From Methanospirillaceae archaeon (lineage in GTDB: Archaea; Halobacteriota; Methanomicrobia; Methanomicrobiales; Methanospirillaceae), in contig JAFGOM010000030.1 in assembly GCA_016926505.1 (NCBI GenBank), positions 1-36,122 on the forward strand: 36,122 bases of DNA. The letters are read 5' to 3'. Each line of letters opens with the position of its first letter. Within the stretch, counting starts at the first letter, position 1. A program made the translations under genes and the position numbers. This document shows positions 3,466 to 11,115 of the stretch, one piece after another. Below the pieces are notes generated by a model. The model ran no database searches. It worked only from the letters and a program-made list of their open reading frames with translations, and was not told the DNA's origin.

Positions 3466-3530
3466 TATATCTGGTATCAAACAGAAATGAGTTCATTATT
3501 GAGAGGCACGCAAAAAGAGTGAGGATAGAG

Positions 3531-3809
3531 ATGAAAGTTACGATTCGTGCATTCGCACGCTTTAAGGATATTTTCGGGGAGATAAACGAGATTACTCTTC
3601 CGGAGTCAGCATCACTCTCTGATGCACTCTCCGACTTTGCTACAGGGTTTCCCGATGGATCAGGAGCCCTCTTCTCAGAGGACGGAGCAGTTCATCCTTA
3701 CATTTTTGTCATGGTTAACCGGGTCCGGATTCCAGAGAAGGATATCTCATCACAGGTTTTGTCAGAGGGTGATGAGGTTGTTATCTATCCCCCGGTATCA
3801 GGAGGATAA
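3531..3809 (+). CDS. moaD: MoaD/ThiS-family ubiquitin-like sulfur carrier
   Basis: A 92-residue beta-grasp protein ending in the diagnostic Gly-Gly tail (PPVSGG), the site of adenylation and thiocarboxylation in MoaD and ThiS. The start MKVTIRAFARFKDIFG is typical of MoaD. An upstream in-frame GTG at 3519 would add four residues, but the purine-rich GAGGATAGAG directly before the ATG at 3531 acts better as ribosome site. The stop is followed after one base by moaE, whose ribosome site overlaps the Gly-Gly codons. As MoaD it is the small subunit of molybdopterin synthase. Its nearness to ycaO-tfuA makes a second role as sulfur donor worth testing. Confidence 0.9.
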   Translation: MKVTIRAFARFKDIFGEINEITLPESASLSDALSDFATGFPDGSGALFSEDGAVHPYIFVMVNRVRIPEKDISSQVLSEGDEVVIYPPVSGG

Positions 3810-3810
3810 G

Positions 3811-4200
3811 ATGATTGCGATAACCCCTGATACCATTAATATAGCAGAGATGATTTCTGCTGCCATTCGTCCCGAAGCCGGTGGGATGGTCATATTTCTC
3901 GGGACGGTCAGGGATGACGGTATCGAGGCCCTTGACTGCGAGTCCTTTCACGAGGTTGCTCTTGCCGATCTTAATTCCCTTGCCGCAGAGGCACAGGAAC
4001 GGTTTTCTCTCTGTTCGGTCGACATCGTGCACCGGATTGGAAGGCTTGCCATTACTGAGCCGATTGTTCTCATCATCGTGACAGCTTCCCATCGTGACGA
4101 GGCATACGAGGGATCGCGGTATATCCTTGATAAGATCAAGGAGTATGTTCCGATTTGGAAGAGAGAGATTACCGGCGGGAGTGAGCGGTGGATTCACTGA
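3811..4200 (+). CDS. moaE: Molybdopterin synthase catalytic subunit
   Basis: A 129-residue MoaE. The conserved FLGTVRDDG appears at about residues 27-35, an ESFHEVA segment stands where MoaE carries its YE.Y..MA motif, and the C-terminal KEYVPIWKRE carries the lysines that form the active site with the MoaD tail. It converts cyclic pyranopterin monophosphate to molybdopterin. The start ATG at 3811 has GGAGGAT 3-9 bases upstream, inside the last codons of moaD. A longer open frame begins at 3622 but runs through moaD and is not used. Methanogens need this cofactor for formylmethanofuran dehydrogenase and formate dehydrogenase. Confidence 0.93.
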   Translation: MIAITPDTINIAEMISAAIRPEAGGMVIFLGTVRDDGIEALDCESFHEVALADLNSLAAEAQERFSLCSVDIVHRIGRLAITEPIVLIIVTASHRDEAYEGSRYILDKIKEYVPIWKREITGGSERWIH

Positions 4201-4300
4201 CTGTATGAAAAGTGGGTGAACAGCTTCGTTGGGTTATACCTTCCATAATTATTGGAAAAGTCATTCGAATGAGTTGTGAGATTGAGAAAAAAACCCATTT

Positions 4301-4418
4301 GAGGTGGTTGCGAGAATACCATTTTTCGATACAATAAGGAAAATCTACTGTGCGAATGACGAACATACACTCTAAATTAACCCAATAATACGAATAAAAT
4401 CATTTATGCACCAGCCTC
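4301..4418. mobile_element. Diverged copy of the palindromic MITE found at 9988-10107
   Basis: The left end reads GAGGTGGTTGC and the right end GCACCAGCCTC, an imperfect terminal inverted repeat. The left half contains TCGATACAATAAGG, identical to the reverse complement of bases in the right half of the element at 9988-10107. The right half, read in reverse complement, gives GCATAAATGATTTTATTCGT, close to that element's left half. Length is 118 bp against 120 bp. No target duplication is clear, so this is an older, decayed insertion in inverted orientation. It lies about 100 bp after moaE. Confidence 0.7.
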
Positions 4419-4920
4419 ATAACAGCCTCTATGTTCAATGCTCTTTCGAAAAGGAATAATTTTTTATTTTCCTCTTGATTTTTTCTCTTTTATTTCGTCT
4501 GTATCCGGCACGGTTTTTGTGGATTTGCTGCTTCGAGTTACATCCCGGGTTTATTATCTGCATCATCATCTGCATCTGGGAATGGCAATTACAGGTTATA
4601 ATAGATATGATGATGAACATGTCGGGTTTACCCATTTTTCTGTCCTCTTGTTTTCTTGCCTGAACAGGTTCTCTTTATCGTTTCAATGGCCTTTGGCAGA
4701 TCTGAATGCCTGGCACAATCAGACGATGAAATAAGTAAGCAATGGATTTTCAGATCAATCACTCCCAACTCAGTCATCAGAATAATCTGTAGACAAAAGA
4801 TGATTATGATGCAGTATACTTCCGATATCGATTGTGTATCCCATCTGTGATAACCGTTCTTTATGTTTCTCTGTTTCAAAGGCTACCATTATTACTGGAA
4901 AAACTCCATACTCAGGAGGT
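4419..4920. other. AT-rich intergenic region before the serine hydrolase
   Basis: About 500 bp with no convincing gene. Some open frames cross it but lack coding character. A 52-codon frame on the minus strand (4928 to 4770) reads PVIMVAFETEKHKERL, faintly like the middle of a receiver domain, and could be debris; I do not call it a gene. A partial IS-end-like ACAGCCTC at 4422-4429 follows the MITE copy directly. Confidence 0.35.
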
Positions 4921-6909
4921 ATGTGCATTTTCCAACGAGGATCTCTGAAAACCGGGAGGTTTCTGAGACATCTCTCTTGTATACTCCTATTTCTCCTGGC
5001 TTTTTTTTGTCTCTGCTCTCCCGGTTATGCAGAAGAATCTGAACATGATTTTAGAACAGATGCAATAATTACGTCTGAAATAGAACATTTCTTTGATTTC
5101 GCCGTACCGGCAGGATTAGCACGATATAATATTCCCGGAGCCACGGTTTCCTTTGTACAGGATGGTGAGATGATCTTTGCCAGGGGATATGGTTATTCAG
5201 ATATCGAAAACAAAACCCCCGTGATCCCTGAAAAGACTCTCTTCCCCATCGGATCGATTACGAAGCTCTTTACCTGGACAGCGGTTATGCAGCTGGTAGA
5301 AGAAGAAAAAATAGACCTTGATATCGATATAAATACCTATCTTACCGACTTTTCTCTCCCTGCCACCTATCCAAAAAACCCTATCACCATGAGAGACCTG
5401 ATGACTCATTCGGCAGGATTTGAGGAACAGGAGAAACATATGGCGGTCAGGGCCGTAGATGATCTCTATTCATTCAGAACATACTGCAGAGAGAGTATAC
5501 CTGCCCGGGTATATCCTCCCGGAACTATTACATCATATTCAAATTACGGAACTACCCTTGCAGCAGTCGTCATCGAAGATATCACCGGCATACCTTATGA
5601 CCGGTACCTGCATGAACAGATACTCGTGCCACTTGCAATGAACCGTACCTGGTATTCCTACACCCTTCCACCTGATACAGCGAAAAACCTCTCGTCTGGT
5701 TTCCATTATGAGGGAGGGAAAAATGTACCTGTCCCTGACTCGGTATATGTTATCGGACCGGCAGGGATCATTAGTTCCACAGCAACCGATATGGCACATT
5801 TCCTTTCTGCTCACATGGAAAACGGGACTTTTCACAATACTGCTATCCTCTCAGAAAATACCACAAAACTCATGCATGCCCCGGCTTTTTCGAATGATCC
5901 CCGGGTCAGCAGTATGTGTCTCGGGTTTTACGAGATGTACCTGAATGGAGAGAGGATACTTACCCATGGCGGAGATACCGATACTTTCCATTCCCTTCTT
6001 GTGCTTCTGCCTGACCGGAAGACAGGATTTTTTGTATCATATAATAGTCCGGGCGGGAATGAAGCACGAAACGAGCTGGTGACTGAATTCATGGATACCT
6101 TCTATCAGGCAGAGAACACGATGCCCGAAACCATTCCGGATACTATCTCCCACCAATCAAAATATGCAGGAGCATATCAGTCTACCCGGCATAATTACCA
6201 GGCATTTGAGTATTATCTGATGCCGCCGCAACAGGTCAGGATCGAGGACGGGGGAGAAGGGAGGCTGGTGATTAAGAGAGAAGGGAAACCTTCTTCAACA
6301 TATACTGAGATTTCTCCGGGGATTTTCACCCAGTCATCCGATAAACCAGAATATACAGGTAATATGATCTTTCGCGAGGATGAAACAGGCACGGTGAATT
6401 TCCTTTGTATTGAGAATGTTCCAATCTTTGCATTCGAACGAGTACCATGGTACGGGACCATTTTGTTTACCGATTGGATGAAAAATATCGGAATTATCAT
6501 TCTCCTGACCATGTTTATATGGCCGGTATCAGCATTATTCCGGAGAGTGTATGGTATTTCAGATACTGAAGAGAAACCGGCAGCGACATATGCCAGGCTT
6601 ATGGCAGGAGCTGCAGCAATCCTCTTTCTCTTCTTTGTCTTGTTTCTCCTTCCGGCGGTAACAGGTGATGTATCCCTTATTAAGAGATATATGGAGGAAC
6701 AAGCGGTTCCCCTGATCATACAACTGGTCATGACCCTCCCGGTGATTGCCGTTGTTTTAACCGTCATTGCTTCAGTTTTCATGATTCTTATATGGAAAGA
6801 GAACTGCTGGACGATATGGTCCAGGCTCCATTATACTCTCATTGTTCTCGGGCTGTATATGATGACATGGTGGGTGAATTTCTGGAATCTCTTTGTATTC
6901 AGACTATAG
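4921..6909 (+). CDS. Membrane-anchored serine hydrolase, beta-lactamase/PBP (class C-like) fold
   Basis: A 662-residue protein with an N-terminal signal segment (about residues 17-37, ending GYAEE) followed by a serine beta-lactamase-fold domain. The catalytic triad motifs are SITK (Ser112, Lys115), YSN (206-208) and HGG (349-351). After about residue 420 comes a linker and lipocalin-like region, then four predicted membrane helices near the C-terminus (about 520-660). It therefore acts outside the cell, tethered at both ends. Members of this fold hydrolyse peptides, esters or D-amino-acid bonds; methanogens lack murein, so a peptidase or esterase role is more likely than antibiotic resistance. 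AGGAGG lies only one base before the ATG, so the start is not certain; the frame is open back to 4834. Confidence 0.88.
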   Translation: MCIFQRGSLKTGRFLRHLSCILLFLLAFFCLCSPGYAEESEHDFRTDAIITSEIEHFFDFAVPAGLARYNIPGATVSFVQDGEMIFARGYGYSDIENKTPVIPEKTLFPIGSITKLFTWTAVMQLVEEEKIDLDIDINTYLTDFSLPATYPKNPITMRDLMTHSAGFEEQEKHMAVRAVDDLYSFRTYCRESIPARVYPPGTITSYSNYGTTLAAVVIEDITGIPYDRYLHEQILVPLAMNRTWYSYTLPPDTAKNLSSGFHYEGGKNVPVPDSVYVIGPAGIISSTATDMAHFLSAHMENGTFHNTAILSENTTKLMHAPAFSNDPRVSSMCLGFYEMYLNGERILTHGGDTDTFHSLLVLLPDRKTGFFVSYNSPGGNEARNELVTEFMDTFYQAENTMPETIPDTISHQSKYAGAYQSTRHNYQAFEYYLMPPQQVRIEDGGEGRLVIKREGKPSSTYTEISPGIFTQSSDKPEYTGNMIFREDETGTVNFLCIENVPIFAFERVPWYGTILFTDWMKNIGIIILLTMFIWPVSALFRRVYGISDTEEKPAATYARLMAGAAAILFLFFVLFLLPAVTGDVSLIKRYMEEQAVPLIIQLVMTLPVIAVVLTVIASVFMILIWKENCWTIWSRLHYTLIVLGLYMMTWWVNFWNLFVFRL

Positions 6910-6927
6910 AGAGATAAGACAGGTCTG

Positions 6928-6941
6928 TTTTTTCTTTTTTT
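6928..6941 (+). terminator. T-tract terminator after the serine hydrolase gene
   Basis: Two runs of six or more T separated by a single C begin 19 bases after the stop codon. Oligo-T tracts without a strong hairpin are the usual archaeal termination signal. Confidence 0.55.
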
Positions 6942-7195
6942 CATTTGTGTTGTTCTCTGGTGCAATTCATCGGGTATTGTGTCTGTTGCATAAAGGAAAT
7001 ATAAATTAAAATACTCTTATAATAATAAACCACAGAGCAAGTCTCACCATTTATTACTGTAATACGCTTTCAAAGGATGTTAATATTCTTCAATAACTTC
7101 ATTTTATGCTTGAATATATTTGCGATTCGTTGATATATCACATTTTAACCATTAAATGTATAACCTTTATCTGTACAATTTAAATGTACATGTAC

Positions 7196-7630
7196 TTAAC
7201 TATATAGAGAATGACGCAAATATATATGTATAATTCTAACGAATCCAGACATGTCGGATCTGTGAATCAACAAACCCTCATTCCAATAGATACGATGTAT
7301 TTGTGAAGTAAGTTTTTTATTTTCCTGTTTAAGGTGCTCATTTTGAGATTTGAGAGAAGAGGATTGAGAGATGAGGTCTTCGTTTTCTGCTTTTAGTAAA
7401 CGAAGTTCGGCTTCATAATTCTCAATGCAAATTTCAAGGGTGGTAAGAGTTGTTTTCAATGCTTGGTTTTCTGATTGAATGGTATGGATCTCGTCTTGTA
7501 ACTGTGCAATGATCTGCTCTTGTTCAACAAGTTGACGATAAAGATTACAATGATAATTGATGACCTCAGGAGAGATGGCCGATGTTTGTCGGTTATCCAA
7601 TTCAAAATGACTGATGAGGGAATTCATCAT
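7196..7630 (-). CDS. Small coiled-coil protein, unknown function
   Basis: A 144-residue AT-rich open frame. Residues about 35-115 form a leucine-zipper-like coiled coil rich in E, Q, L and N (for example LRLLKAENEDLISQ). There is no signal peptide or known catalytic motif. N-terminal segments of some transposases and small partner proteins look like this, but no transposase domain follows. The ATG pair at the start is preceded by AT-rich sequence. It is isolated, between an IS-end remnant region and the serine hydrolase gene, and may be a real orphan gene or a remnant. Confidence 0.45.
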   Translation of the reverse strand: MMNSLISHFELDNRQTSAISPEVINYHCNLYRQLVEQEQIIAQLQDEIHTIQSENQALKTTLTTLEICIENYEAELRLLKAENEDLISQSSSLKSQNEHLKQENKKLTSQIHRIYWNEGLLIHRSDMSGFVRIIHIYLRHSLYS

Positions 7631-7966
7631 TTGTTAATTACATATTTGTACTCATTATATAAGGATCTTGCCATTATGGGGTTTAATTTTGAATTAAGAA
7701 GAATTATGAGTAGATATGGTGTGATGTGTGTAATGAGAAAAATTAGGAGGCTGAATAGGTAAAAAAAACACTAATGAAACGAATTACAGGCAAATTCATG
7801 AAAATAAATCTCTCCTTTTTTCAAATTTCAGATGCATTTTTATGAGTAATCTTTCCCCACATAAGATTTACTTGATCGTTTTCATTCGTCGGGTTTGAGG
7901 CTTTGCCCCTCATCGAATTTTGTCACATTCTTTCTAGAATTCTCATATTTTTGGGATTTTTTATTT

Positions 7967-7979
7967 GTGCAACAGCCTC
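7967..7979. repeat. Solo IS/MITE terminal repeat end
   Basis: TGTGCAACAGCCTC matches the right terminal inverted repeat of the MITE at 9988-10107 at nearly every position, in the same orientation. Sequence to its left (TTTTTGGGATTTTTTATT) does not match the MITE body, so this is more likely the remaining end of a related full-length insertion sequence. Confidence 0.45.
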
Positions 7980-8043
7980 TAATATTGTAGTTATACGAAA
8001 AATATACGAAAAATTCAATCTGCTCGTGAGTGATGTGGTCTGA

Positions 8044-8241
8044 AAGGATCCAGCAGATCTGATTGGTTCTAAAAATTCAGCTGAATGCAAGCGGCTTCAC
8101 GTAACAAGAGCAAAAATTGGTGATTTACGAAATATCAACACGAAGAATAAATGTGTTGTTGGGAGGGAATATCCTGACAAACGTGAGAGAATACGAAAAC
8201 AGAAAATCAGAGCGATTGTAGATTTTTTGCTTTCATTCTGA
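8044..8241 (+). pseudogene. Startless 65-codon open frame, possible gene remnant
   Basis: Between an in-frame TGA at 8041 and TGA at 8239 the frame is open and reads a basic peptide including HVTRAKIGDLRNINTKNK and PDKRERIRKQK. It has no ATG, GTG or TTG near its beginning. Position next to a solo IS end suggests the tail of a lost transposase or of a gene broken by one, but I do not recognise the family. Confidence 0.25.
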
Positions 8242-8253
8242 ATTGTTGCATCT

Positions 8254-8268
8254 AAAATATATATATTA
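8254..8268 (+). promoter_or_regulatory. TATA-box-like element upstream of the first pstS
   Basis: AAAATATATATATTATT lies about 105 bp before the pstS ATG. About 12 bp downstream is AAACTCTATAGTTT, an imperfect palindrome (6 of 7 positions paired) that could be a regulator site. Inferred by inspection only. Confidence 0.35.
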
Positions 8269-8372
8269 TTAAGCAAAACTCTATAGTTTATGATAAAACA
8301 TTTCTGACAGATATTCTATCGATAACCTGTATATTCTCTACAGCCTGATTCCATAGCGGTGAAAACCGAGTT

Positions 8373-9236
8373 ATGAAGAGAAACATGATGCGATCAAGTC
8401 ACTCCAGAATGCTGGTTTTGATTTTTGTTGCGATATTTCTTTGTGTGTGTCCTGGAACTCCTATCCAGGTACAGGCAGATAATACCGGGAGCCTGGAGAG
8501 TCTCAAAATCTCTGGATCCACGACCGTGCTGCCGGTAGCAGCAAGTGCTGCTGAATTCTTTATGGATATGCATCCTGATACTGACATTCAGGTCAGTGCC
8601 GGTGGATCCAGTGTTGGTGTCCAGTCAGTTGGAGAAGGAACTGCAGATATTGGCATGTCTTCCCGTGATCTTAAGGATGTTGAGAAAGAAAAGTACCCGG
8701 ATCTCGTTCCCCTCGTGATGGCACGAGATGGGATAGCCCTTATTGTTCATCCTTCAAACGTAGTTGACTCCCTGACAATTGATCAGGTTAAGGCGATTTA
8801 CAAGGGTGAAATTATTAACTGGAAAGATGTTGGCGGTGAAGAGAAAGAGATAGTAGTTATCGGACGGGACAGTGCATCAGGAACCAGAGAGTTTTTCCAC
8901 GAGTTTGTGATGGATAAAGAAGATTTTGTGCAGACACAACTGGAAAAAAATTCAAACGGGGCGGTTCAGTCAACCGTAGCCCAGACTCCGGGGAGTATCG
9001 GGTATGTCGGACTCGGGTATGTCGATGAGACCATAAAGCCATTATCCATTGATGACGGGACTAACACGGTTGAACCAACGGTTGAGAACGTGTTAGAAGG
9101 GCTTTACCCGGTATCCCGGTCTCTTTACATGATAACAAACGGTGAACCCGAAGGTCTTGCTGCACAATTCCTTGACTTTATTATAAGTCAGGAAGGACAG
9201 AATTTAGTCTCTGAAGAAGGATTCGTCCCTGTCTAA
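8373..9236 (+). CDS. pstS: Phosphate ABC transporter substrate-binding protein, paralogue 1
   Basis: A 287-residue PstS-type phosphate-binding protein. A signal segment covers about residues 12-35 and ends QVQADN; there is no clear lipobox with a following mature Cys, unlike its neighbour. Phosphate-contact motifs are SGSTTVLPVA (about 45-54), SAGGSSVG (about 74-81) and GRDSASGTREFF (about 163-174). The protein would sit outside the membrane and feed phosphate to the PstCA-PstB transporter encoded at 12380-15071. It is followed by a secreted Ig-like protein and a second pstS at 10183. The two pstS genes share stretches of identical DNA, including 43 bases at 8977-9019, indicating recent duplication or gene conversion. 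Confidence 0.93.
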   Translation: MKRNMMRSSHSRMLVLIFVAIFLCVCPGTPIQVQADNTGSLESLKISGSTTVLPVAASAAEFFMDMHPDTDIQVSAGGSSVGVQSVGEGTADIGMSSRDLKDVEKEKYPDLVPLVMARDGIALIVHPSNVVDSLTIDQVKAIYKGEIINWKDVGGEEKEIVVIGRDSASGTREFFHEFVMDKEDFVQTQLEKNSNGAVQSTVAQTPGSIGYVGLGYVDETIKPLSIDDGTNTVEPTVENVLEGLYPVSRSLYMITNGEPEGLAAQFLDFIISQEGQNLVSEEGFVPV

Positions 9237-9267
9237 TCAGGTGCAAAAGTAATTATTCAGGTGCAAA

Positions 9268-9813
9268 ATGAAAATTTTACTATTTATTCTGGTTGTTATC
9301 GGTATCATTCTCGTATCAGGTCAGAGCGTGGTTGCAGAAATGAGCGAGAGTCAGATTAATGGATGCAATAATCTGAAATTATCAAAACTCAGCATGGATT
9401 CTGAAGTTACTGCAGGAGATGAACTATCCTGCTCCTTTACCGTAGAAAACATGGGGGAAATGGTATCTTTAGAGACACCGATCCAGGTTACCTTCCGAAA
9501 CAAAGGGATAGTTGAGTTGTCTGATACGGTTCCTCCCATAAACCCCGGTAAAAGTTCAACCGTTACAATTGATGTTCCGATCCCGGAAGATATTTCCGGC
9601 CTTGGATCTTTCGAAGTGATTGTTGGTTCTTCTGATGTATCTCCAGAATGTTATGGATCAAGAGACACCATTGGAAATATCCTGCGTGTTTTACCTGCTG
9701 GTATGTCAGTGAAGGATTACGATAAGAAAACGACAACCAAGGTAACCAAGGTTAAAGCCACAAGTAAACAAGGGATAAAATGGAATAAAAAACCCAGCAA
9801 TAAAAAGCATTGA
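9268..9813 (+). CDS. Secreted protein with an Ig-like (CARDB-type) beta-sandwich domain
   Basis: A 181-residue protein with a signal peptide (residues 1-23, ending VVAEM). Residues about 40-140 have the alternating pattern of a CARDB or related Ig-like fold: AGDELSCSFTVENMG followed by INPGKSSTVTIDVPIP. The C-terminal 35 residues are very rich in Lys and Thr, suggesting contact with an acidic surface or S-layer glycans. Four Cys may form disulfides. The gene begins 31 bp after pstS; a short direct repeat TCAGGTGCAAAA at 9237 and 9257 provides the GGTG ribosome site. Co-transcription with pstS suggests an accessory extracellular role, but the function is unknown. Confidence 0.75.
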   Translation: MKILLFILVVIGIILVSGQSVVAEMSESQINGCNNLKLSKLSMDSEVTAGDELSCSFTVENMGEMVSLETPIQVTFRNKGIVELSDTVPPINPGKSSTVTIDVPIPEDISGLGSFEVIVGSSDVSPECYGSRDTIGNILRVLPAGMSVKDYDKKTTTKVTKVKATSKQGIKWNKKPSNKKH

Positions 9814-9987
9814 GATCGTAACACCTCAACAGGAAGCTCGATAAAAAAACCCAGATACTATCCCGATCTATAGGTGCATAATCCTGGAACCCAATTCTTC
9901 ATTTATAATTTTCATCCTATCGGTAGTACAATAGTTCTAATTAATTGTAATACCTTCCGGAAATTATTATGATTTATGGGAACCTCT

Positions 9988-10107
9988 GAGGCTGTTGCAC
10001 AAATGATTTTCATTAGTCTTATAAGGCTAATTCACAGTGTGATATCTAATATTCACACTGTTAATTTGCCTTATTGTATCGACGAATTGTATTTATGCAA
10101 CAGCCTC
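9988..10107. mobile_element. 120-bp palindromic MITE
   Basis: The ends are a perfect 12-bp inverted repeat, GAGGCTGTTGCA and TGCAACAGCCTC. The similarity between the two halves continues inward: ATAAGGCTAATTCACAGTGTGA on the left pairs with the reverse complement of TCACACTGTTAATTTGCCTTAT on the right, so nearly the whole element is one imperfect palindrome able to fold as a hairpin. CTCT stands directly outside both ends (9984-9987 and 10108-10111), a likely 4-bp target duplication; alternatively CCTCTGAG (9983-9990 and 10107-10114) is an 8-bp one. It encodes no protein and would need a transposase in trans. It sits 75 bp before the second pstS. Confidence 0.85.
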
Positions 10108-10182
10108 CTCTGAGTAACTAATAACTCTATGGAACATGGGTATGTGACCACGGTAAATGATAAAAAAGTGAGACTGAACTAT

Positions 10183-11055
10183 ATGAAGAGACAGATGATA
10201 AAAACCGGTTTTGCCGGATTGATTATAGTCTTATGTATTGCAGTACTTCTCTCTGGATGTACAGGAACTCCCGGAGAGGGAGATGTTACAAAGGCCGAGA
10301 GAACAGGGACCATCGAGAGTCTGAAGATTTCGGGTTCTACGACCGTGCTTCCGGTAGCCGCGAATGCTGCTGAAATCTTCATGGATATGCATCCGAATGC
10401 TGATATCCAGGTCAGTGCCGGGGGATCCAGTGTCGGAGTCCAGGCGGTAGGAGAAGGGACTGCTGATATCGGGATGGCTTCCCGGGATTTAAAAGACGTC
10501 GAGATAGAGAAGTACCCGGATCTCGTTCCCCGGATGATTGCACGTGACGGGATAGCCGTTATCGTTCATCCATCCAACACGGTAGACAGCTTGACTATTG
10601 ATCAGGTTAAAGCAATATACAGGGGAGAGGTAACCAACTGGAAGGATCTTGGCGGTTCTGATACCCAGATCGTAGTCATCGGACGGGACAGTGCATCAGG
10701 AACCCGGGAGTTCTTCCACGAGTTTGTGATGAAAAAAGAAGACTTTGTACAGACACAGCTTGAGAAGAACTCAAACGGAGCAGTTAAATCAACGATAGCC
10801 CAGACTCCGGGGAGTATCGGGTATGTCGGACTCGGGTACATCGATGAGACAATAAAACCGGTTTCTATCGATAACGGAACAACCACGATAGAGCCCACGG
10901 TAGAGAATGTCATATCAGGAGAGTACCCGGTTTCCCGATCTCTCTACATGATAACCAAAGGCGAGCCGACCGGACTTGCTGCTCAATTCCTTGCGTATAT
11001 CATGAGTCAGGAAGGGCAGGAACTGGTATCTGAAGAAGGTTTTGTTCCTGCGTGA
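10183..11055 (+). CDS. pstS: Phosphate ABC transporter substrate-binding lipoprotein, paralogue 2
   Basis: A 290-residue PstS. The N-terminus MKRQMIKTGFAGL leads into a hydrophobic stretch and a lipobox LLSGC, so the mature protein is predicted to be lipid-anchored. SGSTTVLPVA, SAGGSSVG and GRDSASGTREFF are the phosphate-binding loops. An in-frame ATG at 10129 would add 18 residues before the signal peptide, which is implausible; 10183 is chosen. It is very similar to the first PstS across the whole mature domain. The MITE at 9988-10107 lies immediately upstream, so the promoter is either inside the element or has been altered by it. A T-rich terminator follows. Confidence 0.93.
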   Translation: MKRQMIKTGFAGLIIVLCIAVLLSGCTGTPGEGDVTKAERTGTIESLKISGSTTVLPVAANAAEIFMDMHPNADIQVSAGGSSVGVQAVGEGTADIGMASRDLKDVEIEKYPDLVPRMIARDGIAVIVHPSNTVDSLTIDQVKAIYRGEVTNWKDLGGSDTQIVVIGRDSASGTREFFHEFVMKKEDFVQTQLEKNSNGAVKSTIAQTPGSIGYVGLGYIDETIKPVSIDNGTTTIEPTVENVISGEYPVSRSLYMITKGEPTGLAAQFLAYIMSQEGQELVSEEGFVPA

Positions 11056-11066
11056 AGAGACTCTCC

Positions 11067-11078
11067 TTTTTTCTTTTT
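11067..11078 (+). terminator. T-tract terminator after the second pstS
   Basis: TTTTTTCTTTTT begins 12 bases after the stop codon, an archaeal-type terminator placed between convergent pstS and the AbrB-PhoU gene. Confidence 0.5.
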
Positions 11079-11115
11079 GGTGTATCGGGCCCCGTTTCGG
11101 TAGTTTTTCCTGTGT

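Follow-up and report, generated by a model that had tools for sequence, protein, structure and literature searches.

Eighteen new archaeal MITEs were reported by Kamoun et al. in 2013 (PMC3852290), and the sections of that report considered here contain the counterparts with which the present element is compared. Table 4 of the report lists a MITE of M. hungatei that is 136 bp in length, is present in 6 copies with an inverted repeat of 15 and a direct repeat of 4, and carries the family entry '?'; it is attributed there to ISMhu1 (printed ISHmu1), a name for which nothing was found in the literature searched. The same sections include an IS1182-associated MITE with a direct repeat of 4 in M. 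acetivorans and state that MITEs and their insertion sequences (ISs) often have only their ends in common, as is also the case here. The M. hungatei MITE is likewise short and likewise flanked by 4-bp direct repeats, and its host would be a related one if the relative designated G023 (3,544,738 bp) is M. hungatei. Compared by description and not by sequence, it differs from the present element in length (136 vs 120 bp) and in its inverted repeats (15 vs 12-bp perfect ends). Since MITEs of such kind were already reported in these sections, the present element is regarded as an ordinary MITE.

The DNA analysed (the window) is a 36,122-nucleotide stretch from a Methanospirillaceae archaeon, corresponding to contig C31 of a 2.94-Mb genome in 121 contigs (G000). 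The near-palindromic 120-bp MITE copy occupies positions 9988-10107 (plus strand) and was delimited from its sequence, its fold, an inverted-repeat finder, and its occurrence in multiple copies in G000. A reading of this DNA made from the letters alone (the sequence-only reading) had described 12-bp perfect terminal inverted repeats flanked on both sides by CTCT, and these were confirmed: GAGGCTGTTGCA at 9988-9999 (plus strand) and its exact reverse complement at 10096-10107 (minus strand) were read from the sequence and recovered by an end-pattern search, and the left and right copies of the 4-bp target-site duplication were located at 9984-9987 and 10108-10111 by flank comparison. Its statement that the halves pair nearly end to end is a fair description, as the inverted-repeat finder returned one pair of 55-nt arms (9988-10042 and 10053-10107) that are 75% complementary around a 10-nt loop and pair less well at arm positions 19-33; with G-U pairs admitted, 45 of the 56 mirrored positions are paired. 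The folding energy was -50.2 kcal/mol, compared with -20.0 kcal/mol in shuffled sequences (z -10.0; 0 of 200 shuffles as good), and both strands fold strongly (z -10.0 and -10.7). When up to 2 mismatches are tolerated, the window contains 7 occurrences of the 12-bp end, where 2.0 are expected, and none of 100 shuffles reached this number. The element is not overlapped by any ORF of at least 100 aa, and 120 bp is too short for a transposase. The element is a MITE: it is shorter than about 500 bp with inverted ends, has no transposase gene, occurs in dispersed copies, and is flanked by a target-site duplication.

A nucleotide search of G000 with the element gave matches at 11 distinct places at E<=0.001, which appeared as 17 search rows because a palindromic element also matches the same places in reverse orientation, and the end-pattern search added one copy at C65:44419-44538. 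The ends of contigs C99 and C41, both of which lie inside the element and have outer flanks TGAA/TGAA, are probably the two halves of one copy, and the total for G000 is about 11 copies or fragments. Among the nine copies that are intact and have both flanks, exact 4-bp duplications were found in six (CTCT, AAAA, ATAG, AATG, TTTA, and ATAT), the chance rate computed from these flanks being 0.58% for each copy; three had none (window 4301, C96:123, and C65). The first of these three is a second, diverged copy in the window itself, 118 bp in length at 4301-4418 (minus strand), recognized by nucleotide search and flank comparison. A second partial end, TAACAGCCTC, lies within a few bases after this copy (window 4407-4430). 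On contig C115 a copy is truncated and interrupted by the apparent end of another element, and C91 starts with a similar end beside TGCAACAGCCTC; TGCAAC flanks the possible insertion on each side, and the interrupting element may be IS21-like.

Among 41 genomes (relatives, including G000), matches to the window MITE were confined to G000 and G023, and in an evenly drawn set of 150 genomes of the order the matches were in G000 and in G142, those in G142 covering 37-39 bp of the query. Related copies of 117-139 bp were found in G023, G209, G212, and G142, all of the same order. Copies of the 120-bp class in G023 and G209 carry an exact 4-bp repeat in one case out of six, and another of the six (L016) has a 5-bp TTTAA flank match by eye. 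A class of about 130 bp, present in G023 and G212, has the same 12-bp ends and, equally far from the end, a box, TACAATGAGG, but differs from the window MITE in length and in the rest of its interior; exact 4-bp duplications flank 8 of its 15 copies in G023. The relatives in G142 are 139 bp in length, and one of three has exact repeats. The sequence-only reading had called the element a MITE and proposed that further copies in this genome and in related genomes would bear this out; the call is upheld by the copies in G000 and in these four relatives, by the 4-bp target duplications, and by the existence of ISs with the same ends. No match to the element was obtained in a plasmid search or among viral contigs searched with one pattern.

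The internal box TACAATAAGG is located at 10069-10078 (minus strand), 17 bp inside the right terminal repeat, where it was identified by a pattern match at 10069-10107 on the minus strand, and it is common to the class of about 130 bp. A search of 232 genomes of the order for GAGGCTGTTGCA followed by 17 to 27 bases and TACAATRAGG gave 17 places in three genomes (G000, G023, and G212), with a spacing of 17 bp in every case and none with the reversed-pattern control. Two MITE length classes (120 bp and about 130 bp) therefore have the box at an invariant 17 bp from the end. In the two IS1182-like ISs described below, the outermost 150 bp at each end contained only one weak match to TACAATRAGG (position 117) when up to 2 mismatches were allowed. 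A speculative and rather improbable reading is that both length classes form one old lineage of the order which outlived or changed its partner ISs while keeping the ends and the box 17 bp inside them; the box could then be a second transposase-binding site or a host-factor site, and a MITE-specific architecture would be kept apart from any IS.

The sequence-only reading had held that the terminal sequence points to a parent IS, which might be found by its transposase, and ISs with the same ends were present in a relative. A 1760-bp IS1182-like IS of G023 has the left end GAGGCTGTTGCACAAA, identical over 16 bp to that of the window MITE, and a second IS of this kind in the same genome is 1742 bp in length; the ends of these ISs are the same as those of the MITE or differ by one base, and each encodes a transposase frame of about 540-560 aa. 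End pairs 1760 bp apart in G023 numbered at least 15, counted by hand among the matches listed, plus one more (L089), and exact 4-bp duplications, the same length as at the MITE, were present in four of the four ISs examined. Beyond the 12-16-bp ends, no sequence shared by the MITE and the examined ISs was evident. The transposases of the 1760-bp and 1742-bp ISs scored 251.5 and 260.7 bits with NF033551 (IS1182 family), below its curated cut-off of 270 bits, and the ISs are therefore named IS1182-like only.

In G000 itself, an IS with similar ends was seen solely at contig edges. Comparison of the G023 IS transposase with G000 gave only decayed fragments, on C52 at 25-33% identity, and PF01609 transposases were found in three places in G000, all of them outside paired GAGGCTGTTGCA ends. 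The ends of contigs C89 and C117 are flanked CATA/CATA and C81 and C94 ATAA/ATAA, next to the ends GAGGCTGTTGCATAAAGG and GAGTCGGTTGCACGAATG, and between the two pairs the left ends are identical over 85/85 bp and the right ends over 84/84 bp. Judging from these contig edges, the arrangement agrees with two recent copies of a single IS with an unassembled interior, and since an IS with similar ends is present only in this form, its transposase in G000 is unreadable. The case illustrates that a draft assembly may break at palindromes of this sort and at their ISs, so that the very transposase that is sought is hidden. A 1001-bp stretch of the window at 6979-7979 matches this contig-break IS at both ends in diverged form (79-88%), has flanks TATT/TAAT with no exact duplication, and is probably a decayed or internally deleted IS copy. 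Inside this stretch lies an ORF for a 144-aa coiled-coil protein (7196-7630, minus strand), for which no clear relatives were found in 150 genomes of the order; it was considered as a clue to the parent IS and dropped, as it gave weak matches only, one of them to what we take to be an IS66-like ORF.

The element is very probably a non-autonomous MITE moved in trans by a DDE-type transposase, most likely an IS1182-like one, and inserted with a 4-bp duplication. A DDE-type transposase of an IS1182-like IS with GAGGCTGTTGCA ends, supplied in trans, would cut at the inverted ends; the element would then be inserted with duplication of 4 bp of target, and its insertion between genes, 75 bp ahead of where the second pstS probably starts, would have duplicated CTCT. 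We infer that such a transposase moves the window MITE and is or was present in G000; as judged by sequence comparison, an IS1182-like IS is the best candidate kind of helper, as seen in the relative and not in G000. Against this explanation count the failure to find a clean empty site, the scores below 270 bits, the restriction of G000 to decayed fragments, the lack of a shared interior, and the absence of the box from the IS ends apart from the one weak match, together with the missing duplication at three of nine G000 copies and its presence at only one of six copies in G023 and G209. A helper from a different IS family (e.g., IS5-type) that shares the ends by chance is a possible but less favoured source of mobility, and the absence of the helper interior from the G000 assembly is consistent with it. 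In its favour also, exact 12-bp ends 84-112 bp apart (108-136-bp elements) occur in 20 stretches of the genome_contigs collection, 19 of which come from records without an archaeal label and have mostly unrelated interiors, and 6 of the 20 have exact 4-bp duplications; given these unrelated interiors, the ends alone do not define one lineage. The remaining stretch belongs to a Methanomicrobiales MAG, and its element matches the class of about 130 bp. The sole complete ISs seen with GAGGCTGTTGCA-type ends are the IS1182-like ones of G023, which argues against a helper of another family.

The element is placed between two pstS-like genes, as the sequence-only reading stated: one at 8373-9236 (plus strand, PBP_like_2 domain match) and one at 10183-11055 (plus strand), the start of which was set at 10183 by inspection (a signal-peptide-like start), with the ORF caller giving 10129. 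The two proteins are 77% identical and the genes 1.8 kb apart, with an ORF for a 181-aa CARDB-domain protein (9268-9813) also between them; the MITE sits in the 369-bp gap from this ORF to the second pstS. This location is all that speaks for an outward promoter supplied by the element to the second pstS, as the sequence-only reading had suggested, and that role is highly unlikely: the TATA-like pattern YTTAWATA gave no match in 9814-10183 with up to 1 mismatch (2.1 in shuffles), and a bacterial-type promoter scan gave one hit, outside the element, against 2.6 in shuffles, both scans covering archaeal promoters poorly. A place 75 bp before the probable start of pstS, together with the strong fold on both strands, would also suit an element co-opted by the second pstS as a leader RNA or regulatory hairpin, but such a role is very improbable for several reasons. 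Copies elsewhere fold similarly strongly, the hairpin decays in diverged copies, and four of these fold little above shuffles (z -1.6 to -2.6). In an alignment of 13 copies, pairs changed on both sides numbered 9 against 10.9 in shuffles, and 73.0% of cells were paired against 72.8%; by its compensatory changes, the element does not qualify as a conserved structured RNA. Slid controls pair less (35-43% vs 73%), as descent of the copies from a common palindromic ancestor would explain. No Rfam match up to E=1 was found in 3500-11100, and among 20 pstS loci from a longer homologue list, paired ends within 500 bp upstream were found only at the window's own, at none of the 19 others. A single copy conserved in place across species, which had been named as the finding that would point to a regulatory RNA, is thereby excluded, the element being multi-copy. 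The hairpin is accordingly regarded as a side effect of the palindromic structure and not as a conserved regulatory RNA. For annotation, a repeated hairpin beside a phosphate-uptake gene is cleanly described as a mobile element, which guards against its being read as a riboswitch or terminator.

An empty CTCT site in a relative, which the sequence-only reading had named as confirmation, was not found. The pstS paralogue was tried as the empty site and rejected, since the upstream regions, with the element and one CTCT left out, were dissimilar (score 22; highest score among shuffles 30). The genes flanking the best 120-bp copy of G023 have separate locations in G211, and G212 has one of the two, in both genomes without paired ends beside them; as the flanking genes are never joined, this represents absence and not an empty site. 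Downstream of the pstS pair, phoU-like and pst transporter genes are present. In other genomes the best pstS pairs lie apart; of the two matches in G019, which are separated by 3.3 kb, one is weak. In G212 and G142 (L130/L179 and L148) related MITEs adjoin similar ATPase-like ORFs, on the downstream side in one genome and on the upstream side in the other, which may be coincidence. Contig C83 of G000 holds another short inverted-repeat stretch (L153, 1164-1289), with ends GAGGCTGTCCGA and TCGGACAGCCTC beside a transposase-like ORF, which is probably a second, different MITE-like element or an IS end.
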